NCBI GenBank assembly: GCA_029851415.1
Contig: CM056742.1
Location: 99,864,976 to 99,928,975 of the forward strand
DNA from: Eretmocerus hayati
Lineage: Eukaryota > Arthropoda > Insecta > Hymenoptera > Aphelinidae
DNA: 64,000 nucleotides
Reading direction: 5' to 3'
Below, piece by piece: positions 19,346 through 60,666 of this stretch. Under the pieces are notes generated by a model that did no database searches, was not told where the DNA came from, and saw only the letters and a list, made by a program, of their open reading frames with translations. Position numbers and translations under genes: made by a program. Within the stretch, counting starts at the first letter, position 1. Each line of letters starts with the position of its first letter.

Positions 19346-19369
19346 CTTGCTTGGATTTTATTTTTCTAA

Positions 19370-21510: not shown

Positions 21511-21720
21511 ATGTTAGTTTTTTTTTCTTTTTTCCAATCATTTTTCGGCCATATAATGGCTTAGGAATATCGAGAAAAGTTATTAATAAGGCTGAGTGGC
21601 TTATTTCAATTCCCCAAAAAATGACTCTAATATTCGACTCGAATAAAGGACCCAAATCCTGAGTCTAATACTTGAGTCTAATATTCGAGTCGAATTTAGA
21701 GTCAAATATTTTTACCAGGG

Positions 21721-23694: not shown

Positions 23695-23760
23695 ACTAAT
23701 TTTGATTATTATTTCAAGTTTATTAAGAGTAAGGAAAATGACGCAGATTGGTTAAATAGA

Positions 23761-24152
23761 ATGCCAAATGATGAAGCAGAGGTAGTGAGGGATGGTAAAT
23801 TTGAGAGTTTAGAGGAAAAATCGGATGTTGTTTTGAAAATCATAAAAAAATTTGACTTTGCAAGTCTCGACTGCAAACAAGTCAAAAGATTCACGAGGGG
23901 GGATAAAATCCTTTGTAAAGCTATGAAATATTGTGTGGATGAATGGCCGAGTGAATGTGTTGATGATAACCTGAACATGTATTGGCTTCGGAGAGAAGCA
24001 TTATCAATAGAAAGTGATTGTCTAGTATGGGGGCATAGAGTAATTATTCCAGAAAAATTACAAAACTTGATTCTCAAAGAACTACATTACAGTCATTTTG
24101 GAATCTGTAAAATGAAAGCGCTTGCTCGTGGGTATGTTTGGTGGCTCATCCT
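23761..24152 (+). pseudogene. gypsy integrase N-terminal part
   Basis: Frame with a connector region, then the His pair of the HHCC zinc finger (LKELHYSHFGICKMKALARGYVWW). The Cys pair (SCLIC) lies beyond the insertion, at about 26,550. The insertion therefore falls inside the zinc-finger domain. Confidence 0.8.
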
Positions 24153-26518
24153 CCCACACAGCATGGAAATATTTCAAAGAACGATTCAGGGAAATATTTC
24201 ATTGCAATCTCCCGGGAATCTTGCAGGGATATTGCAGGAGATATTTCAAAATGTTCCGTGGCAATGTTTCAGAGAAAGCTTCCCGGAAGCTCCCGTAAAT
24301 ATTTCAAAGAATCTTACACTCAATCTTTCAGTAACCTTGCACTGAAATATTTCTGAAAGATTCACGAAAGCTTTTTGAAAGATTCCTTGAAACAACTCAC
24401 TGAAATATTTCTGAAAGATTATCGGAAGCTTTCTGAAAGATGTAAGTGCAATATTTTGGGGAGAAGTTTTGGAAGAGATACGAAAGCCTCTTGCGAGGTT
24501 TCATTGCCGGGGGGAATCTCCTGGAAACGTTTCACCGATATTGAGTATAATATTTCATCAGGACGAGGCCCCAAAATTTTCTGGAGGGTTTGCTAGCTTC
24601 TACGGAGGACTACATTTTGAGACCAGTTTCAAATAACATCGTGCTTGCAGTTCTTCTAGGCTGGGAAATCTTCAAGAATTCTATGATGGATTTTCAAAAC
24701 TCACCACGTTCTGATACTCTATATGGAGCACTTTGTGGCTGTGAGTTATCCTTCTAACTCACAATATGAAACGTACCACTTTAGATTGAGCTTAGAAAAT
24801 CAATTTGATTCTGGTTTTCATTGAAACAATAGATTTCGGGAACATTTCAAGGAATTCTTCTATAAGTAACCTCTCTGCCACTCAATTGCACCTAATGAAA
24901 TTGAAAAATTTCTGAATACCTTCTGAAAGATTCCAAAAATATTTCTAGGAATTATTTCACCGGTAATCTTCCAGAAACGTTGCGCTAAAATATTGTTGAA
25001 ATCTTTATGAAAGCTTTCTGGAAGATTTCAATGCAATATTCTCAGGAAGAATTTCCGCGAAATTTTTGTACGATATTGAAATCAATGAAATATTTCATTG
25101 CAATCCCCCAGGAATCTTGCAGGGATGTTGCAGGTGATATTTCAAAATGTTCCGTGGCATTATTTCAGAGAAAGCTTCCCGGAAGCTCCCGTAAATATTT
25201 CAAAGAATCTTACACGCAATCTTTCGGAAACCTTGCATTGAAATATTTCTGGAAGATTCACGAAAGCTCTCTGGAAGATTTCTTGGAACAATTCACTGAA
25301 ATATTTCTGGAAGATTCACAAACCTCCGCTGTGATATAGCCTCATTGAATTCCTAACTTGTTCAAATCTCTTTCGAATTTAGGCTAATCACGAGTCGTCG
25401 CATATAAATGAAGCCATCATAATAATAGGTTTGTGGAAGCTCTCTGACTGATTCCGTACATATTTCTTGGGAACATTCCACAGGTAATCTCCCAGGAATC
25501 TTGCACTGAGATATTGTTGATAGATTCTCGTAAGCTCCCTAAAATCTTTCAGAGCAAAACTATGTGACGGGGTACTTCATATTGATGAGAAAACCGTTAC
25601 AACCGAGGTAAGAATATATTATACTGTTGAAGTATTGCGAGGAGTAATTCTTAACGACTTGAATCTGTGGGATATGAAACATAAATATTGCGGTGGAACA
25701 TTCTGGGAATTTTTCAGTAACATTGCAGTGAAAGATTGTAGAAATCTTTCAGGAACATTGCAGTGAAGGGTTGTGGGAATCATCCAGAAACATTGCAGTG
25801 AAAGATTGTGGGAATCTTCCAGGAATATTTCATTGGAAGATTCTGTTCCCGATAGATGTCGCATAACACACTTTAGTTCTCAAATTTCGTTCTCATAAAT
25901 TATATGGTTTTTGGGAAACTATCTATCAGGAAATTTGATGGTAGTATCAAATGATCTGTCATGTGTGATAACATACCCAGGACCAGCTATGCATAATGGT
26001 ATGTAAATGATACGTGAGGATTATTTGAAGATGCGTAAAGGCTTTCTCGCAAGCGTTTACAATAGACGATGGTTAGTATATAAGACAGGAGGACGGCTTA
26101 TCGCTTAGATGTCGCGTACATCGAAGAGTTCATAAAACCTGGATGAATCTAACGTGAAGCTTTGGATTCAACGTCACAATGGAGTTGAAGTACGCGTCAG
26201 AATGATGAAGTCGAGCATTAGAATGATTAAGAAACTTATCAAGCAAAATATGGATTCCACAGACAGAACATTAACGCATATATTTTTGTGAGATTTCATG
26301 AAATCTTGCAGGAACATTTCACTGAAATATTTCAATGAAATGTTTCTGAAAGCTTCCCGAAATATTCCCGGCAATATTTCATGAAATCTTGCAGAAAAGT
26401 GTCTGAAGTGGGACATATCTTTATTGAGGGAAGCTTTCAGTGAAATCTGTCTGAAAGATTCCCGGGTTTTCCTGAAAGCTTGCAGGAAGGTTTCTGAAAG
26501 ATTCTCATGCTTTGTGGG
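24153..26518. mobile_element. Palindrome-rich inserted element in gypsy integrase
   Basis: 2,366 bp with ends CCCACACAGCATGGAAATAT and, inverted, CCCACAAAGCATGAGAATCT. Large parts are built from short palindromic words (GAAATATTTC, GAAAGCTTTC, GGAAGCTTCC) alternating with GAAAGATTC at roughly 25-30 bp spacing. About 235 bp at 24,190-24,425 is duplicated at 25,087-25,320. No protein domain is seen: the open frames are by-products of the repeat. I found no clear target duplication. Class unknown. Confidence 0.65.
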
Positions 26519-26529
26519 TTTGACAAATA

Positions 26530-27348
26530 TTTGGAAAAAATTACGCGGTCTTGTTTGATATGTTTACAAACAAGGAAATGCCAGTCAAGATTCCACTCAC
26601 ACCTTGGGTGTGGCCTACAGCTCCATGGCATAGAATTCATGCAGATTTTTCTGGTCCAATCAACGGGAAAATGATCCTTATTTTGATAGACAGCCACTCA
26701 AAATGGCCCGAGGCTTATATCATGTCATCTATAAATGAAGATGCAACAATACAAGTTGTTAACGATGTGTTTGCGCGACTTGGTTTCCCAGCACATGTAG
26801 TTACTGATAATTTTAAGACGTTTGTTAGTGAGAAATTCCAAAATCTCATGAAACTATCAGGCGTTAGGCATAGCACAATACCACCACATTTTCCGGGAAC
26901 AAACGGCGCGGCTGAGAATATAGTTGACACTTTCAAACGTAAAATCAAATGTATGATGCAAGATGGTTTGTCATTGCTGAATGCAACACAACAATTTCTG
27001 ATAGATTATCGAAATACTCCACATTGCACGACAAACCAGATGCCTGCAAAATTGTTTCTCGATCGAGAGTTGAGATCTAGATTTTCTTTATTGAGACCAC
27101 GTGAACATGAAGAAGTAGTACACGCTGCACAAGAGAGACACGTCAAATATCATAGAGGTAGTCGTAGAGTATCTCTCAAAATAGGAGATGCGGTAGTGGT
27201 GACAGATTACAGGGGTAAAAAGATGACGTGGACGAAAGCCGTTATCGTGAAAGAATTGGTTCCGGGTGTAACCCACTTGGTAGAATTAGAACCAGATTTG
27301 ATTTGGAAATGGTACAGTAACCAAATGAGAGAGTTTTCCGAATCATAG
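26530..27348 (+). pseudogene. gypsy integrase core and C-terminus
   Basis: After the insertion, RSCLICLQ completes the zinc finger, and a shift leads into the frame 26551-27348. The DDE core is visible: HRIHADFSGPINGKMILI (first Asp), HVVTDNFKTFVSEKF (second Asp, with Phe where families usually have Gly) and FPGTNGAAENIVDTFKRK (Glu). A C-terminal DNA-binding-like tail (GDAVVVTDYRGKKMTWTKAV) ends at a stop at 27348. Confidence 0.85.
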
Positions 27349-28764: not shown

Positions 28765-29676
28765 ACATGGTTTTGATGGTGCATACTTGTGGTTTTCTCA
28801 AAGCGTATCCGAGTTATATCTCACGTATTTTGACCTGCTAATGACGATACCAGGATCTTAGAAATGCTAGGATGCCTTCGAGACTAGTGACAAGCTGGTC
28901 TTTCGAGTTGCTATCGGCGAAATTTGACCAATTTCGGAACGAATCTGAAGGGACTCAGAAAATCGACAAAACACATCCTCTTTCATCTAATACCGAGTCC
29001 ACATTGCCTTCGTCTTGATACATTAGTATGTCGAGACAAAATTATTTGCAGTAGCTCAAAAAACGAAGGATCAGATGAACATGTGAGTAGTTATGTTAGC
29101 ACTCTGGCGAAACGTAAACAAAGGCCCTCTCTCGTGCTCACTCTCCCCCCCACCACCCACCCGTCTCATCAGGTATTTGGACTCGCCGACACGCACACGC
29201 TCCCCCCGCCCGCCTCGCCGGTGGACGAGTAGGAGACCTATTATGCCCCCCCCCCCACTGTATATCTTACCTGTGAACGTAGTGGGCTCTCTCTCTCTCT
29301 CTAGTGCGCGCGCTCTCTGTCTTTTTCACAGACTTACTTGCGTATACACTCTCTGCTTGGCGATGATTCCCCACCGCCATGACTGTACCACTCTTCGGTG
29401 AGACATATAGAACAGTGCAACGACTGAATGCCTCTACCATTAGCCATTGCCAAGAGTCCGGATGGGCTGAGCGATAACTTGATACATCTCATACTATAAT
29501 GTGGCTATATTTTTGTGCGTTTACGGGCAATAATTACTGAGTAAATTTTTCTTCAGTCATTGAGAGAGTGCTCTAATAAGGAAGAAACTTTTTTAAAAAT
29601 TGATGTAGTCGTATAGTACTTGAATGTAAACGCATAATGATGCTCTTCTGTCAAACAACTCTGAATTGAGGCAATA

Positions 29677-29835
29677 GATTCTTAGATGAAGAAGCTACGC
29701 ATTTAATGATTTTGGGGTAAAGAATGAAAAAATGACTCACGAATTAGTGAAAGATGATTCTTAGATGAAGAAGCTACGCATTGAATGATTTTTGGGTAAA
29801 GGATGAAAAAATGACTCACAAATTAGCGAAAGATG
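29677..29835. repeat. 79-bp tandem duplication, left Polinton arm
   Basis: Two consecutive units starting GATTCTTAGATGAAGAAGCT at 29677 and 29756, about 90% alike. The mirrored pair lies at about 45,967-46,127. They sit between the terminus and the AT-hook gene. Confidence 0.75.
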
Positions 29836-30028
29836 ACATTTTTTATTACCAGCAACATCAACAGATTGTGTTTACATGAGGATATGATAACACTGTTTCG
29901 TCAGATGCATCCTTATAGGTGCATTTTTTCTATTATATTTTTGATATTGTCAGCGGTCGATCTGAAAAATTATCTATTTTTAGCTACTATGAATCAAAAT
30001 GTAGTACGAATATATGGAAAATATGTAC

Positions 30029-30979
30029 TTACAAACAAATGCGGCAACGTAGACCGGATCGAAGAGAATTATTTTCATCCGACACGCCACAGCGCTGACA
30101 ACCGTGTGGTGTAGGCTGCACTCCTTTAGCTTTCAGCACCAATTTTCGCTCCTCGATCTTTGCGGTGACGCGGGCCACGCCATCATAAACGATTTTTTCA
30201 ATGCCTTCGAATACTCGGAGTTTATACATACGGCCAAGCTCTTCTATTTGTTGAACCATTCTCTTGAGGTTTGCAATCTCTGGATCATCGTAGAACTCAT
30301 TCCTGATTGGGTATTGGCTTTCCGAGTGTGCGAGCTGTGAAAGACCCTCAGTAGACTTTATGTTGGGGCGGCTTTTTTTTGTCGGCCTTGCATGTTCATC
30401 TTGAGTGTACTTATTCTTTCGGGGGCGGCCTCTCTTTTTTGTTATTGTTGTTGTTTCACCTAGTACTAGCAATTTGCCTGGTGGTGACTCGGGTCTAGCG
30501 AGCTTCTCATACTCTTCGATCGTTACCGATCTCAAGGGTGTCAACAATGGTTTAAGCAATGGTGCATCGTTTGACTTGGGTGAATAATCACTAGACGTAC
30601 CAGCACGTTGATCATTGGCTCCATCTGAGATCTCTTCGACGTAATTTTCATATTCGATAGCAACCGGATCGAGTGTTTTTGACGAATCTCCATTCTCATC
30701 GGGTGATTCTGGCGAATCATATATCGGGTCGATGAACCGCACTACACTGAGAGGTATGTCATTTTCCACAATTTCCACATCACTGTCACTATCCGATTCG
30801 GAGCTTGTAGCCAATATAGTTTTTTGGTCGTGGATATCGGGTGAGCTTGTATCACCCATCGCAGTGCTTCTATGATTAGGACTCGTCAGTACAACAGTGA
30901 CCCGATCATAGATAGAAGATGTTGTGCTCATTGTGTAGGAATGAGTTAATGGAAGCAGCCCAGATGAGATACTGGTCAC
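30029..30979 (-). CDS. AT-hook and CxxC protein of Polinton, left copy
   Basis: 316 residues with no family I recognise. The N-terminal 140 residues are Ser/Asp/Glu-rich and acidic (SESDSDSDVEIVEND). An AT-hook KKRGRPRKNK near residue 182 suggests binding to the minor groove of AT-rich DNA. The C-terminus has two CxxC pairs (CQRC and CRIC, 16 residues apart), a possible zinc site. The frame ends at a TAA that overlaps a splice-donor consensus (GTAAGT). A TTTTTCAG acceptor 71 bp on would replace the stop and add about 16 residues. It is oriented away from the polymerase gene, towards the terminus. A chromatin- or replication-associated role is inference. Confidence 0.6.
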   Translation of the reverse strand: MTSISSGLLPLTHSYTMSTTSSIYDRVTVVLTSPNHRSTAMGDTSSPDIHDQKTILATSSESDSDSDVEIVENDIPLSVVRFIDPIYDSPESPDENGDSSKTLDPVAIEYENYVEEISDGANDQRAGTSSDYSPKSNDAPLLKPLLTPLRSVTIEEYEKLARPESPPGKLLVLGETTTITKKRGRPRKNKYTQDEHARPTKKSRPNIKSTEGLSQLAHSESQYPIRNEFYDDPEIANLKRMVQQIEELGRMYKLRVFEGIEKIVYDGVARVTAKIEERKLVLKAKGVQPTPHGCQRCGVSDENNSLRSGLRCRICL

Positions 30980-31561
30980 ACATTTGTCTGAGCATGATTA
31001 TCCTTCGTTGTTACCACCACCACGTGGGTCCACCCTCCACGAGAATAATTTTTTCTGTGATAACTTGGTGGTTTGTCTCACGCTCAAACTGACGACAGTG
31101 CTAGATGTCTCCGATTGCACGTCGCTGATCCAGATCGAGTCAAGTGGCATGACTCTGGTTGCTAGCGAAAAAATAAGCCGCCTAAGTAGCAGCTCCTGTT
31201 TTGGGACAGTCTACATTCCAAGGAATTTGTCGTGATAAGGTCCTGTATATTGTATCGTACATTATGTGTGGGAATCGAAACTTGCGTTATATGAGACAGG
31301 AACGGAATATGAGTCTTCCTGCTGCTGACTCTACTTCGATGCAAATATTACGATGTACATCGTATGAGCAGTAACTGTATTCACAAAATCTTGCATTTCT
31401 GAATATCAATGTCAGAACTGACTGAATATATTCGGTAGCGTATGCAATGTCAGCACTAGCTCTTTTACCATTCGATGACAACGCACTCCTGCAAATGGAA
31501 TTTTTGCTGAGCAGAAACGTGAGAGCCGCTATGGAGACAAATTAGTCGTACCGTAGACCAT

Positions 31562-31840
31562 ATGATACTGATCGAAGAGCTTTGCGAACGAGCGAATTTT
31601 GCACCACACAGCCGAAGGACGGATTATGAATATTTGAGTAACGGGGTAAAACTGCTTGTTCGGCAAAGATTTGCTATAAAATATAATAAGCCCATGGCGC
31701 GCAATCAGTCGCTATTGTGCATCCGTGTCAGTCTTTGTGTCTTTAGAGTCAATATGGAGAAAGCTATACTCATCAACGCAATCATTAGTACTCTGAAATT
31801 CGCTACGACTCATGATCCTCATGTTGAAACTATGTGTTGA
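31562..31840 (+). CDS. Small hypothetical frame in Polinton arm, left copy
   Basis: 92 residues, MILIEELCERANFAPHSRRT onward, between the AT-hook gene and the 580-bp tandem repeats. There is no recognised domain, signal peptide or clear membrane segment. The mirrored copy at 43966-44244 differs by about one residue, but both arms are so young that this is weak evidence for coding. It could be chance. Confidence 0.2.
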   Translation: MILIEELCERANFAPHSRRTDYEYLSNGVKLLVRQRFAIKYNKPMARNQSLLCIRVSLCVFRVNMEKAILINAIISTLKFATTHDPHVETMC

Positions 31841-32006
31841 CAATTATGAGTGTATTCTCTCTCTCTCTCTCTCTCTCTCTCTATGCTATTTTATATATAT
31901 TCCTAGTCAATTATCATTTTAACTATGAACCCTATATCCCCATGAATATCTGAATATAACAGTATTTCAACCATAAAAATCTTCAATTTTCAATTTCCAA
32001 GGAAAA

Positions 32007-33165
32007 TTATTTGAGAATTTATTTTCGGGTATATAAGTGTACAGACACTCAGATATACAATTTTTCTATCAAAAATTACTCATAAGAAGAATCTACTACC
32101 ACACAGGTCAACAGGTGGGAGCGTTGACCTATTCAAAATTTTCAGATCCAAAATATCATTTTTTGACCATAATTTGTTTATAACTTTGTGTAAACAATTG
32201 TTTTCGCCAAATAAATTATTAGGTCACCTAGCTATAACTATTACAAACAATATAAGCTTTAGAACGCGCAAATCGATCAAGATTTGACGATACAGTAACG
32301 AATCAAGCTATTGATTCGTAAAAACCTGATAACACGTAGAATTTCAGCTTTTGTTGCTTGTAATATTTTTCACAAGCTTGGATCTTTCTCTTTTGCACTT
32401 TTCATTGCTTTGGTGTGGTAGCTAGAATAATCTGGCAAGCATTCGCCAGTGGTACAGCAATCCCCGGTTACAACATTTCATTTTATTGGAGAGAAAAGCA
32501 GTTTGATTCGAGACGTTGCAGACAAGAAAGTGAGTCAATCGCCGAGGGTTCCACCGGACCGGTGTCTCGTCGTTGATAAAATTAAATAGATTATTTGAGA
32601 ATTTATTTTCGGGCATATAAGTGTGCAGACACTTAGATATACCATTTTTCTATCAAAAATTACTCATAAGAAAAATCTACTACCATACAGGTCAACAGGT
32701 AGGAGCGTTTACCTATTCAAAATTTTCAGATCCAAAATATCATTTTTTGACCATAATTTGTTTATAACTTTGTGTAAACAATTGTTTCCGCCGAATAAAT
32801 CATCAGGTCACCTAGCTATGGCCATTATAAACAATATAAGCTTTGGAACGCGCAAATCGATCAAGATTTGACGATACAGTAACGAATCAAGCTATTTATT
32901 CGTAAAAACCTGATAACACGTAGAATTTCAGCTTTTGTTGCATGTAATATTTTTCACAAGCTTGGATCTTTCTCTTTTGCACTCTTTATTGCTTTGGTGT
33001 GGTAGCTAGAATAATCTGGCAAGCATTCGCCAGTGGTACAGCGATCCCCGGTTACAACATTTCATTTTATTGGAGAGAAAAGCAGTTTGATTCGAGACAA
33101 GAAAGTAAGTAAATCGCCGAGGGTTCCACCGGACCGGTGTCTCGTCGTTGATAAAATTAAATAGA
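32007..33165. repeat. Two tandem ~580-bp units upstream of polB, left arm
   Basis: Unit 1 (32007-32590) and unit 2 (32591-33165) each start TTATTTGAGAATTTATTTTC and end in GATAAAATTAAATAGAT, about 93-95% alike. They lie in the intergenic space between the AT-hook gene and the polymerase, which are divergently oriented, so they may contain promoter sequence. There is a (CT)n run just before, at 31,857-31,882. Confidence 0.85.
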
Positions 33166-33342
33166 TATGCAAAGTAAGATGCATATCGTCTCTCTCTACC
33201 TCTCATTCTTTCTCGACTCTTTCTTGCTCTCTTTCACTCTCCCTCTCTTCAGTACTCTCCCACACAGCATGAATTTTCTTTCTGATCCTTCTCTACATTT
33301 TCAATTGTACCCCCACCAGCAACAATAAACTCATCTCTCCTC

Positions 33343-36300
33343 ATGCAACCGTCTGACTCGTGCGCGTGGCTAATACGTCTTGTGCTCTCTTTCTCCCCCT
33401 TTTGTGCGGACAGCGCCAGTGACTATGAATCGCCCTATAGATATATTTCAATCAAACAATTTTTTCTAGACTTTGAGGAAGTACTGAACCGTCCATCGAC
33501 ATCGGGTACCTCACACGCACCTGCAGAGCAAAATCATTCGAGACCTGCGAACGGGTCAGAAGCTAATGATGATGACCAGGAAGGTGACGATCATCATTCG
33601 GAGTCGACCTTGACAGCTGCCTCAGTGCAAGAGGAGGAGGAACAAACATTAAATTCTGATCGTCGAAGGAGCCGATCGCGCTCCACATCAACATTTTCAA
33701 GCTTGAGCTCTCGATCATCCTCAAACTCCAACTCTTCGTCCTCCGGCTCTGATTCATCATCGAGTTCTAGTTCGAGTACATCTTCCACTACCAGTTCTTC
33801 ATCATCATCATCGAGTGACGGAGGTGAGTTTGATCTTAAATTTTCAGACGGTCTTTCATGACAGAAGAAGGGTAAACATTTTGTGTGTCCTACAGACGCT
33901 AATTTTCAGATTGGGCACGGTATAAGAGGTCAATTTCTGGTGGAATCGGTAACACCCAGACGGTATAGACGTTTTGGTATAGAGGGTCGCGAGATCAGAG
34001 GAAGAATTCCAGCACCACAACAAGGAGTCGACATCTACCAATGGATACTCAGCTGTTTGCAAGATTTATATGAGCGAATGTGCAGAGGCGGACACGACGA
34101 CTACTTCATAGGCGCTTCTGTAAGTTCAGATAAATTTCAACACGGGCCACTCTGGTTATCTTTCAGACCTATGAGAAATTTTCAAATCGATATGTTATGG
34201 GACTTGTTATTTAATGCAGCGCAGGGTACAACTGATTTTGAAATAGATGATAGCCTCATTGTAACTTGTGATATTGTGCGTAATGTACGTGGCCGTGGTC
34301 GCCGTCGTTCGACAGAGAACGTGGTGAAGAAGAAATCAATTTTGAATATCCGGAATGATGATAAGCTATGTTTGCCTCGGTCGCTCGTTACCGCATACGC
34401 CCATGCAGTCCGTGGTCAAGTACGCACGGGACTGTTACATGAGTATTGGAACTCAATTCGTCAATTTCGAGGGGCAGAGCAAAAACGAGCGGCCGAGGAA
34501 TTAGTAGCGCAAGCTCAAGTAAAAATACCTGAAGCTGGCTGTGGGACCTTAGAGATAAGAGGTTTTCAGGAATTTTATAAGCATCGTAGTACAGCACTGG
34601 TTGTTTACACTCTAGGAGGTTATGGTCGTGGTGATTTACCAATTTTCGATGGTAGAGAGATAGTGAATGATCTCAAGGGTCGAGTAGACCATACTTTATA
34701 CATCATGTATTTCGAGAGAGAGCGTCATTTCCAACCAATTCTAAACCTTACGGGTGCTGCAGGTGCAAACGGTTATTGCATACCTTGTAATAAGAGTTAT
34801 ACAGTAGCTGCCGATCACCGATGCTCTAATAGGTGTCATAAATGCATGAATATCCCCCAGTGTGATATGACCGAGGAAAAAGTTCATTGCCCAGCCTGCT
34901 CTAGATATTTTTACGGTCAAGGATGCTTCAATGATCACCTTAGAGTAGGATTTTTTGATAAAAAGTCGACAGTCTGTGATGAATTGAAAGCGAAAAGTAC
35001 TGTAAACTTGTTCGAATCCAGGGTCATGAGTGTGGTGTGTCATTTTGTCAAATTTGTAAAGAGAAACTACCAATTGGTCACTTTTGTTCATGCAACCAGT
35101 GCCGAGAGGGGAAAAAAAACCACCGGCAATATACATTTTTTTCGACATAGAGTCACAACAGTCCAAGAAAGTAGAGGGTGACGAGACCAAAACGGTCCAT
35201 GTACCTAATTTGATTATGGCTCAACAACTCTGTAGTTTTTGTATCGTAGAGAAGGATCCGAATATGGATGAAGATTGTCCCAAATGTGGGAATAGAGAGT
35301 ACAAGTTCGAAACTGACCCAGTGAAGGAGTTTGTCGATTTTTTACTGGAAGAGAAAGAGAATTTCAAACAGATCGTTGTGGTTTCTCATTATGGATCAGG
35401 TTTCGATAATCAATTTTTATTCAAATACTTGGTTGAAAATCATGCTGAACGCACAAAACCATCAGTGATTCTCAATGGCACCAAGATCATTATGATGAAG
35501 TTTAGAAATATCAAATTCATAGATAGCTTCTTGTATTTTCAAATGAGCCTGAGCAATTTACCAAAAGCATATGGCCTACCAGACCACAAAGGGACTTTCC
35601 CACATTCATTTAATAAGCCTGGAAATGAGACTTATGATGATGTGATGCCACCTTTAGAAGATTCTTCACCAGACTCTTTGAAAGAATCCGACAGAGAACG
35701 TCTGATAGAATGGTACAATGAACAAGTAGCGAACAATTATAGGTTCAATTTTTGGGAAGAGCTTGTTAAATACAGCCGTCTCGATGTGATTATACTAAGG
35801 AAAGCGTGTGTGGTTTTTCGTGAAATGCTTCTAGAGTACGATGTCGATCCATTTTTAGAATGTTGTACGGTTGCATCCACTTGCTTGCTCGTCTATAGAA
35901 AAAATTTTTTGAAAAAAAACCAGATTGGTATCTTGCCCCCGGGAGGTTATCGAAAACGTTTCAATCAGTCAGTAAAAGCATTGCAGTGGCTATCATGGAT
36001 GGAAAAGAATGTTTTGAAACGAAAAATCGAATATAGTGCTCGCGGTCGTGAACGGAGGTTACCCGAGGGAATACTTGTAGATGGATATGCGAGTCCTGAA
36101 GAAGGGGAAAATCACAAAGGTACTGTCTTGCAATTCCATGGGTGTTTCTGGCACGGCTGCCCTTGTTGTAATCGTTTCAACAGGGATGAGAGTGTCATCA
36201 AAGGGGAATCGATGGATGAGAAATTTGAAAGTACTTGTGCCACATCTTCGCGAATCAAAAATTCTAACTATCGTTTGATTGAGATGTGGGAATGCGATTT

Positions 36301-36541
36301 CGATTCATTGGTCAGTTCAAATTCAGACTTATCGGAATTCATCCGTGAGAACTCTGAGTATTTCACTCACATGAAACCGCTTGATCCTCGTGATACCTTT
36401 TTCGGTGGTCGAACGGGAAATACAGTCAAAGTTTACGATTTCAAGGAAGGTGAAGAAGGTAAATATGTCGATTTCAACTCGTTGTACCCATCGGTTAATA
36501 AAACAGCCAAATATCCCGTGGGTCACCCGACAATCTATATA
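33343..36541 (+). pseudogene. polB: Protein-primed family B DNA polymerase, left copy, 5' part
   Basis: 33343-33861 encodes a Ser/Arg-rich N-terminus (RRRSRSRSTS). A TGA at 33859 interrupts the frame, but a 72-bp intron (GTGAGT at 33824, CAG at 33893-33895) would remove it in frame. 33883-34,990 continues with a region typical of Polinton polymerases, including CIPCNKSYTV and other Cys/His pairs. A Cys/His segment at about 34,990-35,088 lies in a different frame from both neighbours, implying two 1-nt shifts. From 35,084 come exonuclease motifs IFFDIES, HYGSGFDNQFL and YSRLDVI, then FHGCFWHGCPCC, then motif A, YVDFNSLYPSV. The MITE cuts the gene at 36,541. The enzyme would replicate the element from protein-bound ends. 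This copy cannot be functional. Confidence 0.85.
33824..33895 (+). other. Candidate 72-bp intron in polB, left copy
   Basis: Donor GAG|GTGAGT, acceptor CCTACAG. The length is a multiple of three and the flanking frames are the same, so splicing would remove the TGA at 33859 without changing frame. The length is typical of short insect introns. No transcript is available to confirm it. The same feature is mirrored at about 41,915-41,986. Confidence 0.45.
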
Positions 36542-37852
36542 CACTGAAAAACTTTCCCATCATCCGCTGGCTCTAAATTGCGAGCCGATGGCGAACGCGC
36601 AAAACAAATTCTGATGATTCTCGCTCAAGTGAGTAGCGCCAGAACCTACACTAGCGTCGCGCTAGAATTCAGCAATCGAGGTGCCGCCAGAAGAGCCAAA
36701 GAGCCAGCGGGGCTCTTTGCTCTGCTGGCGGTACACTTGACGAAGCGAAGCGACGGCGCAGAGCTCGTCGCGCATGGCCCGTTGAATAAATTCGAATCAG
36801 TGCATGCGTGTTGGTGCGAGTCGTCAGCTGTGCCTCATGGCCACACTATTTATACGAATAGTTTTGCAGATTACTAAAGAATATCAATGATGCTCTAGTG
36901 GAAAATTTTCTCTGATAAATTTATAACTCTGCGGGTTAAAACGACATCTACCCATTTGAGAGGCTCACATTTTAAATGTAGTCACTTGGATAATCTCGTT
37001 TCTCTTCAGAGGAGATTTTGAGAAGTTGTTCTCCAGCAGATTTCCAGTATAGTCGAATTCTTGATCAATTATCAAAGTATTGCTGGAATACATAGAAATG
37101 GTGGATTATAGAAATTAGCCCTATTCCTCAGTCTGCATAAAAATAGCAATCGGGAACAAATAGTCTATTACGTGTATCGAACCAACTATCTGTCGTTCAT
37201 ATGATGGAACAGACATTTAAGACACCACGACTCGAGTATAGAAATTCGTATGCTTGGAAGTGAGCGATATAGAGATTGTCAGCGGAGTTTGCGACGTACA
37301 ATTTCCACATCTGCTCAAAATACTCTTAATATACCGGGTACTTGCTATTCATGCCAAAATACCGATACGTTTAATCCATCAACTCGCGGCTCTTCAGTAC
37401 ACTCGTGTGCGATATGAATATATATCTTCTACAACATCTCAAGGATGTCGCGTTTATATATATATTTAGATATACATCTTCGGATGATTTCTTTACACAA
37501 CTTCAAAAAATCCATGCTCCTCAAAATTATATGGATGGATACATCTGTTATGGTTCTGATGATGTGATAATAATGTGCTGATTAGTATACTCGTGTGATG
37601 CGGTGTGAGTATATAATCAGCACTGGTATATTATTATATATACAGTCAACGCCCGCCGCTCTCGCGAGGTAATACTGTTGCGCGGCCGCCAGCAGAGCGA
37701 AGAGCCCCGCTGGCTCTTTGCTCTCCTGGCGGCACCTCGATTGCTGAATTCCAGCGCGATACTCTCAGTAGCGCTACCGTCGCGTTTGTATGAGACGTAC
37801 CGGTGGTTCGTGAAATTGCGGGACCAGCGGATGATGGGGAAGTTTTTCAGTG
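36542..37852. mobile_element. 1,311-bp TA-target MITE in left polB
   Basis: The ends are CACTGAAAAACTTTCCCATC and, inverted, CACTGAAAAACTTCCCCATC, with about 29 bp of terminal repeat. Sub-terminal inverted similarity continues for some 200 bp (AATTCAGCAATCGAGGTGCC on both sides). A TA duplication flanks it (36540-36541 and 37853-37854). TA targets point to the IS630/Tc1/mariner superfamily. No transposase frame is present. The right Polinton arm has the empty site at 39,268. Confidence 0.88.
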
Positions 37853-37854
37853 TA

Positions 37855-38651
37855 GGCCCAGAGGAGTGTATACAGTTTGTTGGTGTCGAGAAAGATGTTG
37901 AGCGCGTCTTTGGTCTAATCATGTGTACCATACTATCACCACGAGATCTCTACCACCCCGTTTTACCAGTTCACATGCACAATAGGATGTTGACTCCTCT
38001 TTGTCGTACTTGCGCTGAACTTTGTATCCAAGAAGATTGTCCTCATGAAAATCCAAAAGATAGAATGCTTTTCGGTTCATGGGTTTCAGTAGAAGTACAA
38101 GCAGCTGTCAAGCACGGGTATGTAGTTGACGAAATTTTCGAGATTTGGCATTATGATGAAACCACTCAGTATGACAAATCAACACGCGAAGGTGGCATAT
38201 TTGCGGGCTATATTGATGCATCCTTTGCACGAAAAATGAGGGCATCGGGTTTCCCCCCAGGATGCGTCACGGATGAACAGAAGCGCGCTTATGTGGACGA
38301 GTTGTCCCGGGTGGAGGGGATAAACTTAGACGTTGATTCCATCAGTTTCAATCCTGGGCTGAGATCCGGAGCTAAGACTTTTTGTAATTCAGCGTGGGGA
38401 AAATTTGGTCAACGGGACAACATGGGTACTACCGAGGTTGTGAGTGACCCCTCGAGATTGATGGCTATGCTAAATAATCCAGAGATCGTTGTCAATGGTA
38501 TAATACCCGTGAACGATAAAATTCTGTACGTTAATTGGTGCTACTCGGAAAATGTAGCCATTTCATCACCAAAGAGTAACGTAGTCATAGCAGCATTCAC
38601 AACGGCGTATGCGCGGTTGAAGTTGTTTGAGTGCCTAAATTTCCTAGGTCC
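37855..38651 (+). pseudogene. polB: DNA polymerase, left copy, 3' part, truncated before motif C
   Basis: It resumes at GPEECIQFVGVEKDVERVFG after the MITE. It then holds the region between motifs A and B that in protein-primed polymerases includes TPR2, and motif B, KTFCNSAWGKFGQR (Lys and Gly/Tyr-pocket region). The homology ends at YARLKLFECLNFLG, where the spacer meets the right arm. The next conserved element, motif C with the catalytic DTDS, is missing, as is the thumb. The open frame runs on to 38733 only by reading into the inverted arm. Confidence 0.85.
38471..38651. other. 181-bp unique spacer at the centre of the palindrome
   Basis: The left arm ends at GATGGCTATGC (38470) and the right arm begins at GCATAGCCATC (38652). 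The spacer is simply the continuation of polB beyond the copied part. I see no microhomology of more than 1-2 bp at the turn-round. Confidence 0.85.
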
Positions 38652-40726
38652 GCATAGCCATCAATCTCGAGGGGTCACTCACAACCTCGGTAGTACCCAT
38701 GTTGTCCCGTTGACCAAATTTTCCCCACGCTGAATTACAAAAAGTCTTAGCTCCGGATCTCAGCCCAGGATTGAAACTGCTGGAATCAACGTTTAAGTTT
38801 ATCCCCTCCACCCGGGACAACTCGTCCACATAAGCGCGCTTCTGTTCATCCGTGACGCATCCTGGGGGGGAAACCCGATGCCCTCATTTTTCGTGCAAAG
38901 AATGCATCAATATAGCCCGCAAATATGCCACCTTCGCGTGTTGATTTGTCATACTGAGTGGTTTCATCATAATGCCAAATCTCGAAAATTTCGTCAACTA
39001 CATACCCGTGCTTGACAGCTGCTTGTACTTCTACTGAAACCCATGAACCGAAAAGCATTCTATCTTTTGGATTTTCATGAGGACAATCTTCTTGGATACA
39101 AAGTTCAGCGCAAGTACGACAAAGAGGAGTCAACATCCTATTGTGCATGTGAACTGGTAAAACGGGGTGGTAGAGATCTCGTGGTGATAGTATGGTACAC
39201 ATGATTAGACCAAAGACGCGCTCAACATCTTTCTCGACACCAACAAACTGTATACACTCCTCTGGGCCTATATAGATTGTCGGGTGACCCACGAGATATT
39301 TGGCTGTTTTATTAACCGATGGGTACAACGAGTTGAAATCGACATATTTACCTTCTTCACCTTCCTTGAAATCGTAAACTTTGACTGTATTTCCCGTTCG
39401 ATCACCGAAAAAGGTATCACGAGGATCAAGCGGTTTCATGTGAGTGAAATACTCAGAGTTCTCACGGATGAATTCCGATAAGTCTGAATTTGAACTGACC
39501 AATGAATCGAAATCGCATTCCCACATCTCAATCAAACGATAGTTAGAATTTTTGATTCGCGAAGATGTGGCACAAGTACTTTCAAATTTCTCATCCATCG
39601 ATTCCCCTTTGATGACACTCTCATCCCTGTTGGAACGATTACAACAAGGGCAGCCGTGCCAGAAACACCCATGGAATTGCAAGACAGTACCTTTGTGATT
39701 TTCCCCTTCTTCAGGACTCGCATATCCATCTACAAGTATTCCCTCGGGTAACCTCCGTTCACGACCGCGAGCACTATATTCGATTTTTCGTTTCAAAACA
39801 TTCTTTTCCATCCATGATAGCCACTGCAATGCTTTTACTGACTGATTGAAACGTTTTCGATAACCTCCCGGGGGCAAGATACCAATCTGGTTTTTTTTCA
39901 AAAAATTTTTTCTATAGACGAGCAAGCAAGTGGATGCAACCGTACAACATTCTAAAAATGGATCGACATCGTACTCTAGAAGCATTTCACGAAAAACCAC
40001 ACACGCTTTCCTTAGTATAATCACATCGAGACGGCTGTATTTAACAAGCTCTTCCCAAAAATTGAACCTATAATTGTTCGCTACTTGTTCATTGTACCAT
40101 TCTATCAGACGTTCTCTGTCGGATTCTTTCAAAGAGTCTGGTGAAGAATCTTCTAAAGGTGGCATCACATCATCATAAGTCTCATTTCCAGGCTTATTAA
40201 ATGAATGTGGGAAAGTCCCTTTGTGGTCTGGTAGGCCATATGCTTTTGGTAAATTGCTCAGGCTCATTTGAAAATACAAGAAGCTATCTATGAATTTGAT
40301 ATTTCTAAACTTCATCATAATGATCTTGGTGCCATTGAGAATCACTGATGGTTTTGTGCGTTCAGCATGATTTTCAACCAAGTATTTGAATAAAAATTGA
40401 TTATCGAAACCTGATCCATAATGAGAAACCACAACGATCTGTTTGAAATTCTCTTTCTCTTCCAGTAAAAAATCGACAAACTCCTTCACTGGGTCAGTTT
40501 CGAACTTGTACTCTCTATTCCCACATTTGGGACAATCTTCATCCATATTCGGATCCTTCTCTACGATACAAAAACTACAGAGTTGTTGAGCCATAATCAA
40601 ATTAGGTACATGGACCGTTTTGGTCTCGTCACCCTCTACTTTCTTGGACTGTTGTGACTCTATGTCGAAAAAAATGTATATTGCCGGTGGTTTTTTTTCC
40701 CCTCTCGGCACTGGTTGCATGAACAA
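38652..40726 (-). pseudogene. polB: DNA polymerase, right copy, 3' part
   Basis: Mirror of the left polymerase without the MITE. The frame 40726-38846 (626 aa, TTG start) is open from the exonuclease motifs (IFFDIES, HYGSGFDNQFL) through the WHGCPCC segment, motif A (DFNSLYPS) and the segment after it. At 38,866-38,872 there is a run of seven G (C on the coding strand) where the left arm has six. This shifts the frame just before motif B, which continues in 38829-38652 (KTFCNSAWGKFG). The sequence stops at the palindrome turn before motif C. Residue differences from the left copy include Phe/Ser, Gly/Asp and Pro/Leu changes near motif A. Confidence 0.85.
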
Positions 40727-42467
40727 AAGTGACCAATTGGTAGTTTCTCTTTACAAATTTGACAAAATGACACACCACACTCATGACCCTGGATTCGAAC
40801 AAGTTTACAGTACTTTTCGCTTTCAATTCATCACAGACTGTCGACTTTTTATCAAAAAATCCTACTCTAAGGTGATCATTGAAGCATCCTTGACCGTAAA
40901 AATATCTAGAGCAGGCTGGGCAATGAACTTTTTCCTCGGTCATATCACACTGGGGGATATTCATGCATTTATGACACCTATTAGAGCATCGGTGATCGGC
41001 AGCTACTGTATAACTCTTATTACAAGGTATGCAATAACCGTTTGCACCTGCAGCACCCGTAAGGTTTAGAATTGGTTGGAAATGACGCTCTCTCTCGAAA
41101 TACATGATGTATAAAGTATGGTCTACTCGACCCTTGAGATCATTCACTATCTCTCTACCATCGAAAATTGGTAAATCACCACGACCATAACCTCCTAGAG
41201 TGTAAACAACCAGTGCTGTACTACGATGCTTATAAAATTCCTGAAAACCTCTCATCTCTAAGGTCCCACAGCCAGCTTCAGGTATTTTTACTTGAGCTTG
41301 CGCTACTAATTCCTCGGCCGCTCGTTTTTGCTCTGCCCCTCGAAATTGACGAATTGAGTTCCAATACTCATGTAACAGTCCCGTGCGTACTTGACCACGG
41401 ACTGCATGGGCGTATGCGGTAACGAGCGACCGAGGCAAACATAGCTTATCATCATTCCGGATATTCAAAATTGATTTCTTCTTCACCACGTTCTCTGTCG
41501 AACGACGGCGACCACGGCCACGTACATTACGCACAATATCACAAGTTACAATGAGGCTATCATCTATTTCAAAATCAGTTGTACTCTGCGCTGCATTAAA
41601 TAACAAGTCCCATAACATATCGATTTGAAAATTTCTCATAGGTCTGAAAGATAACCAGAGTGGCCCGTGTTGAAATTTATCTGAACTTACAGAAGCGCCT
41701 ATGAAGTAGTCGTCGTGTCCGCCTCTGCACATTCGCTCATATAAATCTTGCAAACAGCTGAGTATCCATTGGTAGATGTCGACTCCTTGTTGTGGTGCTG
41801 GAATTCTTCCTCTGATCTCGCGACCCTCTATACCAAAACGTCTATACCGTCTGGGTGTTACCGATTCCACCAGAAATTGACCCCTTATACCGTGCCCAAT
41901 CTGAAAATTAGCGTCTGTAGGACACACAAAATGTTTACCCTTCTTCTGTCATGAAAGACCGTCTGAAAATTTAAGATCAAACTCACCTCCGTCACTCGAT
42001 GATGATGATGAAGAACTGGTAGTGGAAGATGTACTCGAACTAGAACTCGATGATGAATCAGAGCCGGAGGACGAAGAGTTGGAGTTTGAGGATGATCGAG
42101 AGCTCAAGCTTGAAAATGTTGATGTGGAGCGCGATCGGCTCCTTCGACGATCAGAATTTAATGTTTGTTCCTCCTCCTCTTGCACTGAGGCAGCTGTCAA
42201 GGTCGACTCCGAATGATGATCGTCACCTTCCTGGTCATCATCATTAGCTTCTGACCCGTTCGCAGGTCTCGAATGATTTTGCTCTGCAGGTGCGTGTGAG
42301 GTACCCGATGTCGATGGACGGTTCAGTACTTCCTCAAAGTCTAGAAAAAATTGTTTGATTGAAATATATCTATAGGGCGATTCATAGTCACTGGCGCTGT
42401 CCGCACAAAAGGGGGAGAAAGAGAGCACAAGACGTATTAGCCACGCGCACGAGTCAGACGGTTGCAT
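40726..42467 (-). pseudogene. polB: DNA polymerase, right copy, 5' part
   Basis: Mirror of 33343-35084: Ser/Arg-rich N-terminus (42467-41949), the same in-frame TGA within the same candidate intron, then 41927 to about 40,820 with CIPCNKSYTV and RCHKCMNIPQC. The same frame disturbance occurs around the Cys/His segment. Only about two residues differ from the left copy over 430, so the breaks predate the duplication or are shared base-calling errors. Confidence 0.82.
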
Positions 42468-42643
42468 GAGGAGAGATGAGTTTATTGTTGCTGGTGGGGG
42501 TACAATTGAAAATGTAGAGAAGGATCAGAAAGAAAATTCATGCTGTGTGGGAGAGTACTGAAGAGAGGGAGAGTGCAAGAGAGCAAGAAAGAGTCGAGAA
42601 AGAATGAGAGGTAGAGAGAGACGATATGCATCTTACTTTGCAT

Positions 42644-43804
42644 ATCTATTTAATTTTATCAACGACGAGACACCGGTCCGGTGGAACCCTCGGCGATTTA
42701 CTTACTTTCTTGTCTCGAATTAAACTGCTTTTCTCTCCAATAAAATGAAATGTTGTAACCGGGGATCGCTGTACCACTGGCGAATGCTTGCCAGATTATT
42801 CTAGCTACCACACCAAAGCAATAAAGAGTGCAAAAGAGAAAGATCCAAGCTTGTGAAAAATATTACATGCAACAAAAGCTGAAATTCTACGTGTTATCAG
42901 GTTTTTACGAATAAATAGCTTGATTCGTTACTGTATCGTCAAATCTTGATCGATTTGCGCGTTCCAAAGCTTATATTGTTTGTAATGGTCATAGCTAGGT
43001 GACCTGATGATTTATTCGGCGAAAACAATTGTTTACACAAAGTTATAAACAAATTATGGTCAAAAAATGATATTTTGGATCTGAAAATTTTGAATAGGTC
43101 AACGCTCCTACCTGTTGACCTGTGTGGTAGTAGATTTTTCTTATGAGTAATTTTTGATAGAAAAATGGTATATCTAAGTGTCTGCACACTTATATTCCCG
43201 AAATCAAATTCTCAAATAATCTATTTAATTTTATCAACGACGAGACACCGGTCCGGTGGAACCCTCGGCGATTGACTTACTTTCTTGTCTGCAACGTCTC
43301 GAATCAAACTGCTTTTCTCTCCAATAAAATGAAATGTTGTAACCGGGGATTGCTGTACCACTGGCGAATGCTTGCCAGATTATTCTAGCTACCACACCAA
43401 AGCAATGAAAAGTGCAAAAGAGAAAGATCCAAGCTTGTGAAAAATATTACAAGCAACAAAAGCTGAAATTCTACGTGTTATCAGGTTTTTACGAATCAAT
43501 AGCTTGATTCGTTACTGTATCGTCAAATCTTGATCGATTTGCGCGTTCTAAAGCTTATATTGTTTGTAATAGTTATAGCTAGGTGACCTAATAATTTATT
43601 TGGCGAAAACAATTGTTTACACAAAGTTATAAACAAATTATGGTCAAAAAATGATATTTTGGATCTGAAAATTTTGAATAGGTCAACGCTCCCACCTGTT
43701 GACCTGTGTGGTAGTAGATTTTTCTTATGAGTAATTTTTGATAGAAAAATTGTATATCTGAGTGTCTGTACACTTATATACCCGAAAATAAATTCTCAAA
43801 TAAT
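42644..43804. repeat. Two tandem ~580-bp units, right Polinton arm
   Basis: Mirror of 32007-33165: units at about 42,644-43,219 and 43,220-43,804. A few substitutions and a small indel (TTATATTCCCGAAATC) distinguish them from the left arm. An (AG)n run follows at 43,929-43,950. Confidence 0.85.
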
Positions 43805-43965
43805 TTTCCTTGGAAATTGAAAATTGAAGATTTTTATGGTTGAAATACTGTTATATTCAGATATTCATGGGGATATAGGGTTCATAGTTAAAATGATAAT
43901 TGACTAGGAATATATATAAAATAGCATAGAGAGAGAGAGAGAGAGAGAGAATACACTCATAATTG

Positions 43966-44244
43966 TCAACACATAGTTTTAACATGAGGATCATGAGTCG
44001 TAGCGAATTTCAGAGTACTAATGATTGCGTTGATGAGTATAGCTTTCTCCATATTGACTCTAAAGACACAAAGACTGACACGGATGCACAATAGCGACTG
44101 ATTGCGCGCCATGGGCTTATTATATTTTATAGCAAATCTTTGCCGAACAAGCAGTTTTACCCCGTTACTCAAATATTCATAATCCGTCCTTCGGCTGTGT
44201 GGTGCAAAATTCGCTCGTTCGCAAAGCTCTTCGATCAGTATCAT
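43966..44244 (-). CDS. Small hypothetical frame, right copy
   Basis: Mirror of the 92-residue frame at 31562. Unrecognised, with no domain. Coding status is unproven. Confidence 0.2.
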   Translation of the reverse strand: MILIEELCERANFAPHSRRTDYEYLSNGVKLLVRQRFAIKYNKPMARNQSLLCIRVSLCVFRVNMEKAILINAIISTLKFATTHDPHVKTMC

Positions 44245-44826
44245 ATGGTCTACGGTACGACTAATTTGTCTCCATAGCGGCTCTCACGTTTCTGCTCAGC
44301 AAAAATTCCATTTGCAGGAGTGCGTTGTCATCGAATGGTAAAAGAGCTAGTGCTGACATTGCATACGCTACCGAATATATTCAGTCAGTTCTGACATTGA
44401 TATTCAGAAATGCAAGATTTTGTGAATACAGTTACTGCTCATACGATGTACATCGTAATATTTGCATCGAAGTAGAGTCAGCAGCAGGAAGACTCATATT
44501 CCGTTCCTGTCTCATATAACGCAAGTTTCGATTCCCACACATAATGTACGATACAATATACAGGACCTTATCACGACAAATTCCTTGGAATGTAGACTGT
44601 CCCAAAACAGGAGCTGCTACTTAGGCGGCTTATTTTTTCGCTAGCAACCAGAGTCATGCCACTTGACTCGATCTGGATCAGCGACGTGCAATCGGAGACA
44701 TCTAGCACTGTCGTCAGTTTGAGCGTGAGACAAACCACCAAGTTATCACAGAAAAAATTATTCTCGTGGAGGGTGGACCCACGTGGTGGTGGTAACAACG
44801 AAGGATAATCATGCTCAGACAAATGT

Positions 44827-45777
44827 GTGACCAGTATCTCATCTGGGCTGCTTCCATTAACTCATTCCTACACAATGAGCACAACATCTTCTATCTATGA
44901 TCGGGTCACTGTTGTACTGACGAGTCCTAATCATAGAAGCACTGCGATGGGTGATACAAGCTCACCCGATATCCACGACCAAAAAACTATATTGGCTACA
45001 AGCTCCGAATCGGATAGTGACAGTGATGTGGAAATTGTGGAAAATGACATACCTCTCAGTGTAGTGCGGTTCATCGACCCGATATATGATTCGCCAGAAT
45101 CACCCGATGAGAATGGAGATTCGTCAAAAACACTCGATCCGGTTGCTATCGAATATGAAAATTACGTCGAAGAGATCTCAGATGGAGCCAATGATCAACG
45201 TGCTGGTACGTCTAGTGATTATTCACCCAAGTCAAACGATGCACCATTGCTTAAACCATTGTTGACACCCTTGAGATCGGTAACGATCGAAGAGTATGAG
45301 AAGCTCGCTAAACCCGAGTCACCACCAGGCAAATTGCTAGTACTAGGTGAAACAACAACAATAACAAAAAAGAGAGGCCGCCCCCGAAAGAATAAGTACA
45401 CTCAAGATGAACATGCAAGGCCGACAAAAAAAAGCCGCCCCAACATAAAGTCTACTGAGGGTCTTTCACAGCTCGCACACTCGGAAAGCCAATACCCAAT
45501 CAGGAATGAGTTCTACGATGATCCAGAGATTGCAAACCTCAAGAGAATGGTTCAACAAATAGAAGAGCTTGGCCGTATGTATAAACTCCGAGTATTCGAA
45601 GGCATTGAAAAAATCGTTTATGATGGCGTGGCCCGCGTCACCGCAAAGATCGAGGAGCGAAAATTGGTGCTGAAAGCTAAAGGAGTGCAGCCTACACCAC
45701 ACGGTTGTCAGCGCTGTGGCGTGTCGGATGAAAATAATTCTCTTCGATCCGGTCTACGTTGCCGCATTTGTTTGTAA
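44827..45777 (+). CDS. AT-hook and CxxC protein of Polinton, right copy
   Basis: 316 residues, identical to the left copy apart from about one change (Arg to Lys before PESPPGK). AT-hook KKRGRPRKNK, acidic N-terminal half, C-terminal CQRC/CRIC pairs. The stop overlaps the donor GTAAGT at 45774. An acceptor TTTTTCAG ends at 45844, giving a 71-bp candidate intron and about 16 further residues. Both copies are intact, in contrast to the broken polymerase beside them. Confidence 0.6.
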   Translation: MTSISSGLLPLTHSYTMSTTSSIYDRVTVVLTSPNHRSTAMGDTSSPDIHDQKTILATSSESDSDSDVEIVENDIPLSVVRFIDPIYDSPESPDENGDSSKTLDPVAIEYENYVEEISDGANDQRAGTSSDYSPKSNDAPLLKPLLTPLRSVTIEEYEKLAKPESPPGKLLVLGETTTITKKRGRPRKNKYTQDEHARPTKKSRPNIKSTEGLSQLAHSESQYPIRNEFYDDPEIANLKRMVQQIEELGRMYKLRVFEGIEKIVYDGVARVTAKIEERKLVLKAKGVQPTPHGCQRCGVSDENNSLRSGLRCRICL

Positions 45778-45844
45778 GTACATATTTTCCATATATTCGT
45801 ACTACATTTTGATTCATAGTAGCTAAAAATAGATAATTTTTCAG
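45774..45844 (+). other. Candidate 71-bp intron in AT-hook gene, right copy
   Basis: Donor TTT|GTAAGT, AT-rich body, acceptor AATTTTTCAG. Splicing would remove the TAA and keep reading to a TAA about 50 bp later. Mirrored in the left arm. Confidence 0.4.
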
Positions 45845-46988
45845 ATCGACCGCTGACAATATCAAAAATATAATAGAAAAAATGCACCTATAAGGATGCA
45901 TCTGACGAAACAGTGTTATCATATCCTCATGTAAACACAATCTGTTGATGTTGCTGGTAATAAAAAATGTCATCTTTCGCTAATTTGTGAGTCATTTTTT
46001 CATCCTTTACCCCAAAATCATTCAATGCGTAGCTTCTTCATCTAAGAATCATCTTTCACTAATTCGTGAGTCATTTTTTCATTCTTTACCCCAAAATCAT
46101 TAAATGCGTAGCTTCTTCATCTAAGAATCTATTGCCTCAATTCAGAGTTGTTTGACAGAAGAGCATCATTATGCGTTTACATTCAAGTACTATACGACTA
46201 CATCAATTTTTAAAAAAGTTTCTTCCTTATTAGAGCACTCTCTCAATGACTGAAGAAAAATTTACTCAGTAATTATTGCCCGTAAACGCACAAAAATATA
46301 GCCACATTATAGTATGAGATGTATCAAGTTATCGCTCAGCCCATCCGGACTCTTGGCAATGGCTAATGGTAGAGGCATTCAGTCGTTGCACTGTTCTATA
46401 TGTCTCACCGAAGAGTAGTACAGTCATGGCGGTGGGGAATCATCGCCAAGCAGAGAGAGTATACGCAAGTAAGTCTGTGAAAAAGACAGAGAGCGCGCGC
46501 ACTAGAGAGAGAGAGAGCCCACTACGTTCACAGGTAAGATATACAGTGGGGGGGGGGCATAATAGGTCTCCTACTCGTCCACCGGCGAGGCGGGCGGGGG
46601 GAGCGTGTGCGTGTCGGCGAGTCCAAATACCTGATGAGACGGGTGGGTGGTGGGGGGAGAGTGAGCACGAGAGAGGGCCTTTGTTTACGTTTCGCCAGAG
46701 TGCTAACATAACTACTCATGTGTTATTCCAAAAAGAAGCCTTTGATAATTTGTAGAGGTAAGACCAAGCCTCCTCGTAGTGGGTCAAATATGCAGTTTCC
46801 TAGTCCCACGTGCTTATCAATTTATATAGACAGTCCTTTCCAAACACTCGAGTTGATATATCTCGCGGTTTATCTAGTGCCGAATGTCTGAATTCAATTG
46901 CCTCCATATTAATAACATGGTGAATCTACGTGAGCTTAGAGTGAGAAACAATGGGGTATCTGAATTCCCTCCAAAATTTGATCACTAA

Positions 46989-60663: not shown

Positions 60664-60666
<3 letters not shown>

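Follow-up and report, generated by a model that had tools for sequence, protein, structure and literature searches.

A palindromic Polinton with the same terminus at both ends, integrated at a single site in the Eretmocerus hayati assembly

A 64,000-nucleotide (nt) window of the Eretmocerus hayati genome (CM056742.1; coordinates without a contig name are positions of this window, and C1 to C4 are contigs of the same assembly) harbors a palindrome built from the polymerase-bearing half of a Polinton (Maverick, or polintovirus). The palindrome occupies positions 29086-46716 and measures 17,631 bp, or 16,318 bp without an insertion in its left arm. Taken as assembled, its structure is confirmed as one palindrome with a single integration. 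The features to which the text refers are as follows.

29086..38470, plus strand: left arm, the polymerase-side Polinton half with terminus AGTAGT (9,385 bp including a later insertion of 1,313 bp)
38652..46716, minus strand: right arm (8,065 bp), with a terminus identical in type to that of the left arm
38471..38651, plus strand: loop of 181 nt, which continues the pPolB of the left arm without filler
38651..38652, no strand: turn-round, blunt and without microhomology; the three nearest relatives run on into pPolB here
29080..29085, no strand: left copy of the target-site duplication, CATGTG; a single corresponding 6-mer in five of five fetched empty sites
46717..46722, no strand: right copy of the target-site duplication, CATGTG; a single corresponding 6-mer in five of five fetched empty sites
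33862..36547, plus strand: pPolB frames of the left arm, with Pfam DNA_pol_B_2 from 35060, interrupted by two small deletions common to the right arm
37853..38651, plus strand: continuation of pPolB in the left arm up to the turn-round, beyond which the relatives proceed into a Y-F-D-T-D-S motif
36540..37852, no strand: insertion present in the left arm and missing from the right one, with inverted ends of about 30 bp and a TA duplication
30029..30997, minus strand: open frame of 322 amino acids (aa) in the left arm, for which a protein search found two relatives, both from Eretmocerus hayati

The innermost paired bases of the palindrome are 38470 and 38652. Aligned with each other, the arms share 8,042 identical columns and differ by 26 substitutions, 5 small indels and the left-only 1,313-bp insertion; three further listed mismatches, located in the duplication or at the loop edge, are not among the 26. 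Eleven of the 26 substitutions fall within the tandemly repeated stretch 32532-33234. An earlier note, made from the window alone, had described two near-identical inverted arms with one terminus, and this description holds with small corrections (the arm lengths and the 181-nt loop listed above). A stretch of about 580 bp is tandemly duplicated in both arms (32006-33166 and 42644-43804) and has a single match in the three nearest relatives. The outer 30 bp of the insertion ends match at 29 of 30 positions, and its TA duplication was read by eye; we take it to resemble a Tc1/mariner-type element. Within the window, the 22-base terminus occurs twice at no more than three mismatches, where 0.01 occurrences would be expected by chance.

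The palindrome has Polinton-type (AGT)n...(ACT)n termini with a 6-bp target duplication, and both arms encode a family B polymerase of the DNA_pol_B_2 type, truncated and carrying small deletions. Among the 6 of 41 listed window frames searched against Pfam, pPolB alone exceeded the curated cut-off. The Y-F-D-T-D-S motif of the relatives is presumably palm motif C. No DDE integrase with chromodomain, adenovirus-like protease or double-jelly-roll capsid gene was found in the palindrome, and between its right arm and the distal half of L034, a full-length relative, the terminal repeat is the only match. In a search of 10 of its 12 listed frames, that distal half proved to encode an integrase core with a chromodomain, a Ulp1-type protease (Peptidase_C48 above the curated cut-off, Peptidase_C5 below it) and a PLA2-like domain; no packaging ATPase was detected among these 10. 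A 444-aa protein of L034 has 2,132 homologues, and its structural model (mean predicted local distance difference test score, pLDDT, 61) has the Sputnik virophage as its best solved PDB match; the viral matches of the model begin with an unnamed bracovirus protein and go on to include capsid proteins of adomavirus, virophage and nucleocytoplasmic large DNA viruses (NCLDV). With low-to-moderate confidence, the model suggests a capsid fold for this protein. The assignment of this DNA to a Polinton, already made in the earlier note, is upheld by pPolB in the arms and, in the relative's distal half, by the integrase, the protease and the tentative capsid fold. Its statement that both ends are the same terminus is likewise upheld. 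Among IMG/VR viral contigs, neither a confirmed relative of the polymerase nor an exact match of the 22-base terminus was found, and the comparison therefore rests on the genome to which the window belongs. Vertebrate Mavericks, according to PMC8097293, share this end motif and 6-bp duplications, and their size is close to 17 kb with a spread of about 10%.

A search of the assembly for the terminus gave 51 matches, and the full-length relatives for which the earlier note had suggested a search are present as 13 paired Polintons with the same termini and 6-bp target duplications. The target duplications are exact in 11 of the 13 pairs and agree at five of six bases in the other two; one of the 11 depends on reading the polymerase-side (P) end as (AGT)3 rather than (AGT)2. 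At L005 (C4:93760171), the P terminus has a third AGT unit, which is consistent with jumping-back initiation of protein-primed replication. Sixteen distinct P ends were sorted among the loci cut out, namely the 2 of the palindrome, 12 paired with a distal (D) end and 2 unpaired (L008 and L009); L055, with a weak P score (206 versus 184), was left out. All 12 relative pairs with both ends sorted are P/D and none is P/P, the arrangement of the palindrome, while in the thirteenth pair (C2:71.4 Mb) the shortness of one end precluded this sorting. L030, L053 and L054 are D ends for which no partner was found, and the D end at C4:93.74 Mb (L049), which had a tied score, was assigned from its inner part past an insertion.

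The terminal repeats of full-length relatives extend over about 120 bp. In the nearest relatives, the outer 70 bp of the P and D repeats differ only at position 55 and in how long a C run is. Diagnostic single-base sites, with one base common to three P ends and another common to two D ends, lie at positions 71, 92, 106, 110, 114 and 120. Both ends of the palindrome are P-type at all six, as they are at another five of five sites at 123-135 (11 of 11 in total), and the D-type insertion at position 122 is missing from both. Position 55 was considered as a D-end signal and set aside as uninformative: it is A in the palindrome and in D ends and C in the three nearest P ends, but A in five of five other P ends examined. 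The three nearest copies have 98.4-99.3% identity to the palindrome in the polymerase-side half, repeated stretches excluded. The shortest paired relative is 17.4 kb long (C1:4.07-4.09 Mb), and the other pairs extend over 18.6 kb to about 147 kb end to end, presumably reflecting insertions. Elsewhere among the relatives, L009 and L010 (C4:60866773 and C4:60805413), about 61 kb apart, have a P end and flank duplicated at 99.9%, which by this identity is a recent segmental duplication. In addition, L039 (C4:60.80 Mb) and L040 (C4:93.85 Mb) have in common an internal deletion close to the P end (at about 277-1927 of the arm), which removes the 322-aa frame; either this frame is dispensable or the deleted form was mobilised with help.

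The outer junctions of the palindrome read CATGTG-AGTAGT...ACTACT-CATGTG, with hyphens at the points of insertion. The left flank is a dispersed repeat, with 1,734 candidate copies at first look, of which 40 were scored, 39 other places listed and five fetched. When the host flanks are joined with a single 6-mer between them, they align without gaps to five of five fetched empty copies (699-707 bp, 92-93%); both outer ends therefore belong to one insertion, and no host bases were lost. The empty-site 6-mer is one base off CATGTG in all five, and both copies at the palindrome read CATGTG, as would be expected if this copy of the repeat already had that form. At the level of the assembled sequence, these alignments show a single integration event at one site. 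The AG...CT bounds described in the earlier note hold, and its CATGTG duplication is genuine, each of the five empty copies having one 6-mer. The two 1.5-kb host flanks of the palindrome do not match each other, and the wider flanks (20 and 17 kb) have three weak matches (168-506 bp, 71-78%), one of them in the repeat adjoining the insertion, as expected of dispersed repeats. By contrast, at C3:97232227 and C3:97252645 (L024, L017, L045, L046), two D ends face each other in an inverted segmental duplication comprising about 3.5 kb of the Polinton distal half (95%) and a host flank of 1,500 bp or more (98%). Judged from these alignments, this is how a segmental inverted duplication looks in this genome, and the palindrome carries no such shared flank.

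The parentage of the arms was assessed by comparison with three relatives (on C3, C1 and C4) over 6,663 columns outside the tandem-repeat stretch, gap columns not being counted. Both arms are separated from the three relatives at 49 substitution sites, whereas seven changes are private to the left arm and seven to the right; the relatives have 7 (C3), 13 (C1) and 10 (C4) private changes. Not one substitution unites an arm with a relative, which rules out an origin of the arms from two different parents, and by these counts the arms are sisters from one parent. They appear to have split late, roughly when the relatives began to diverge, because the counts private to the arms are near those of the relatives. 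For the same reason, strong gene conversion between the arms is not required.

At the centre, the palindrome departs from polB at 38651 and re-enters it at the base matching 38470. A 560-bp query across this junction found a full-length match at the window's own place only. None of the 16 other polB copies (at least 91% in the better half; two are at 87% in the other half and one is split by an insertion) spans the turn-round, and their halves match separately, as in one ordinary gene. The turn-round is likewise not spanned at six remote places (70-77%), and a further two matches were too short to be informative; the counts of this search are lower bounds. The position of the turn-round given in the earlier note stands; the template switch that it proposed there is one possible cause among others, as a blunt junction fits end joining or later trimming of the centre equally well.

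Integration of a ready-made palindrome, produced either by copy-back synthesis or by end joining, is the probable origin of this structure. Our tentatively favoured explanation is copy-back, by which the palindrome would be a defective P/P form of a Polinton that arose as linear DNA and integrated once. Under this explanation, pPolB would begin protein-primed synthesis at the P end of linear Polinton DNA, as the family and the AGT-repeat ends suggest, and about 8.2 kb in, synthesis would reverse onto the half already made, yielding a molecule of near-unit length with the same terminus twice. The integrase of another copy would then insert the two identical ends into the dispersed repeat, leaving CATGTG on both sides; the empty sites show this to have been a single event, and action in trans is suggested because, of the relative's distal half, the arm holds the terminal repeat and nothing else. 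The arms subsequently diverged, and the 1.3-kb element entered the left one, as their alignment displays. A linear palindrome existing before integration would explain the single duplication, the two P ends, the timing, and the length without the insertion, as 16,318 bp is near the 17.4 kb of the shortest paired relative, which would be in keeping with a packaged genome. The prior existence of the palindrome as linear DNA, claimed in the earlier note, thus remains the best reading, but the argument is weakened by the possibility of remodelling in place through the terminal repeats and by the polB deletions of the parent.

Several observations weigh against copy-back. Foremost, and the main result against copy-back straight from an active element, are two polB deletions of 4 bp and 1 bp (at about 34,980-35,090), which are present in both arms and in none of the six relatives examined. 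The parent, or an intermediate palindromic lineage, would already have been polB-defective, unless gene conversion between the arms spread the deletions later; such conversion after integration is possible and would make the common deletions younger than the palindrome. Polarised polB changes on the stem of the palindrome comprise 3 synonymous and 10 non-synonymous ones, with another 2 non-synonymous changes unpolarised, where chance would give 20-33% synonymous. These changes look neutral, although the numbers are too small to call selection absent, and with so few stem sites there is no clear difference from two other copies (9/17 and 25/42). In addition, no priming homology was found at the turn-round, whose two sides have no bases in common and no filler, and no second palindromic copy, of the kind the earlier note had proposed to look for with other turn-round points, was seen in this assembly. 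The near-unit length relies on the shortest relative, all other pairs being 18.6 kb or longer, and exchange with a distal repeat would be possible in the outer 70 bp, where P and D ends are alike. A small number of gap columns, located in runs of C or CT near the terminus, do unite one arm with one or two relatives; we read these as run-length noise.

The polB deletions and the neutral-looking stem are what one would expect of a defunct resident copy that was remodelled in place, an explanation that we consider unlikely but that has several points in its favour. In this scenario, a break or stalled fork in the polB of a resident full-length Polinton would fold back or switch, copy the P half in inverted orientation and rejoin through the D terminal repeat, replacing the distal half. 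The outcome would also bear a single target duplication, and the earlier contention that a resident element could not leave one matching duplication was too strong, since terminal repeats of about 120 bp permit exchange in the outer 70 bp, where the P and D repeats of the relatives are so similar. The broken polB is better explained in this way, and large inverted duplications do occur in the genome (C3:97.23/97.25 Mb). However, remodelling in place needs two switches, one of them within the outer 70 bp despite about 120 bp of similar repeat (the ends being P-type at 6 of 6 sites at 71-120). Furthermore, the duplication on C3 extends over 1,500 bp of host flank (98%), whereas the palindrome carries none, and both the near-unit length and the relative-like timing would become coincidences.

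End joining before integration, which taken by itself is rather less probable again, would involve two truncated linear Polinton DNAs of one clone, with ends at 38651 and at the match of 38470, joined head to head and then integrated by their identical outer ends. The blunt junction without microhomology or filler agrees with this, and asymmetric ends would leave the 181-nt loop, but two broken molecules are required, and the blunt junction may equally stem from later chromosomal trimming of the palindrome centre. End joining is treated as a possible contributor to the snapback genomes of adeno-associated virus (AAV) in PMC13422874. Copy-back and head-to-head end joining are indistinguishable here, because the turn-round is blunt.

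More doubtful is the idea that Polintons make heritable defective-interfering genomes, in which case a palindromic lineage would have passed through many rounds on helper proteins before being fixed in the wasp germline. The arms would stay identical as each round passed through one folded half, and neutral changes and polB deletions would hit both. If this were true, transcription across the centre would yield long double-stranded RNA directed against the polymerase of the helper.

An assembly artefact, arising from a self-reversed read (a missed hairpin adapter) or from two misjoined copies, is very improbable. Palindromes are a familiar long-read artefact, but 26 substitutions and the 1,313-bp insertion distinguish these arms from each other, and the two flanks are both sides of one empty site. 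Moreover, the assembly (692.1 Mb, four chromosomes) was built with hifiasm from HiFi, Illumina and Hi-C data, with 0.01% heterozygosity reported in PMC10482854. It is next to impossible that a deletion reshaped a segmental inverted duplication or a pair of Polintons inserted head to head or one within the other, and these origins can be dismissed: such a duplication exists on C3 and the wider flanks have weak matches (71-78%, up to 506 bp), but the 1.5-kb flanks are dissimilar and one 6-mer stands gap-free in five of five fetched empty sites.

Several known systems are close to the palindrome. It resembles full-length Polintons of the same genome in its AGTAGT terminus and 6-bp target duplication. 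In those elements a P end is paired with a D end, and the distal half of the one examined encodes an integrase, a protease and a putative capsid protein, whereas the palindrome consists of two P halves and lacks the D half. AAV is a hairpin-primed parvovirus and not protein-primed. Its snapback (self-complementary) defective genomes have one end duplicated, in symmetric form or in asymmetric form with a loop, as described in PMC8235507; in the palindrome, too, a self-complementary sequence has the same terminus at either end. The AAV snapback genomes are encapsidated, however, whereas the palindrome is a germline integrant at a target duplication. Palindromic protein-primed linear DNAs with one terminus at both ends include the yeast killer "hairpin plasmid" and symmetric recombinants of adenovirus 12, which are free or packaged DNA, unlike an integrated transposon copy. 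In the copy-back defective interfering genomes of negative-strand RNA viruses, the template turns back on the nascent strand; these differ from the palindrome in involving an RNA polymerase and RNA genomes and in not integrating. As the earlier note had supposed, no prior integrated palindromic Polinton was found in the open-licence literature, judged by titles. The novelty is that a Polinton provides this defective copy, built like the snapback genomes of viruses; snapback genomes themselves were already known.

Elsewhere in the window, long frames at 6214-10437, 18419-27348 and 60491-62314 look retrotransposon-like by eye (copia-like, integrase-bearing and with an R1-like reverse transcriptase), and no Rfam families at gathering score and no tRNAs were found within the window.

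To our knowledge, the replication intermediates of animal Polintons have for the most part been deduced. As to particles of Mavericks, PMC8097293 states that none have been observed. Collectively, the palindrome suggests that Polinton DNA can fold back on itself during copying and still reach the genome, as defective virus genomes do. If this is true, the integrated palindrome would be a record of free, linear DNA replicating by protein priming; it would also attest that the integrase can work on a pair of identical ends and that virus-like defective genomes enter the germline. The 8-kb inverted repeat would, in addition, be a candidate source of antiviral double-stranded RNA.

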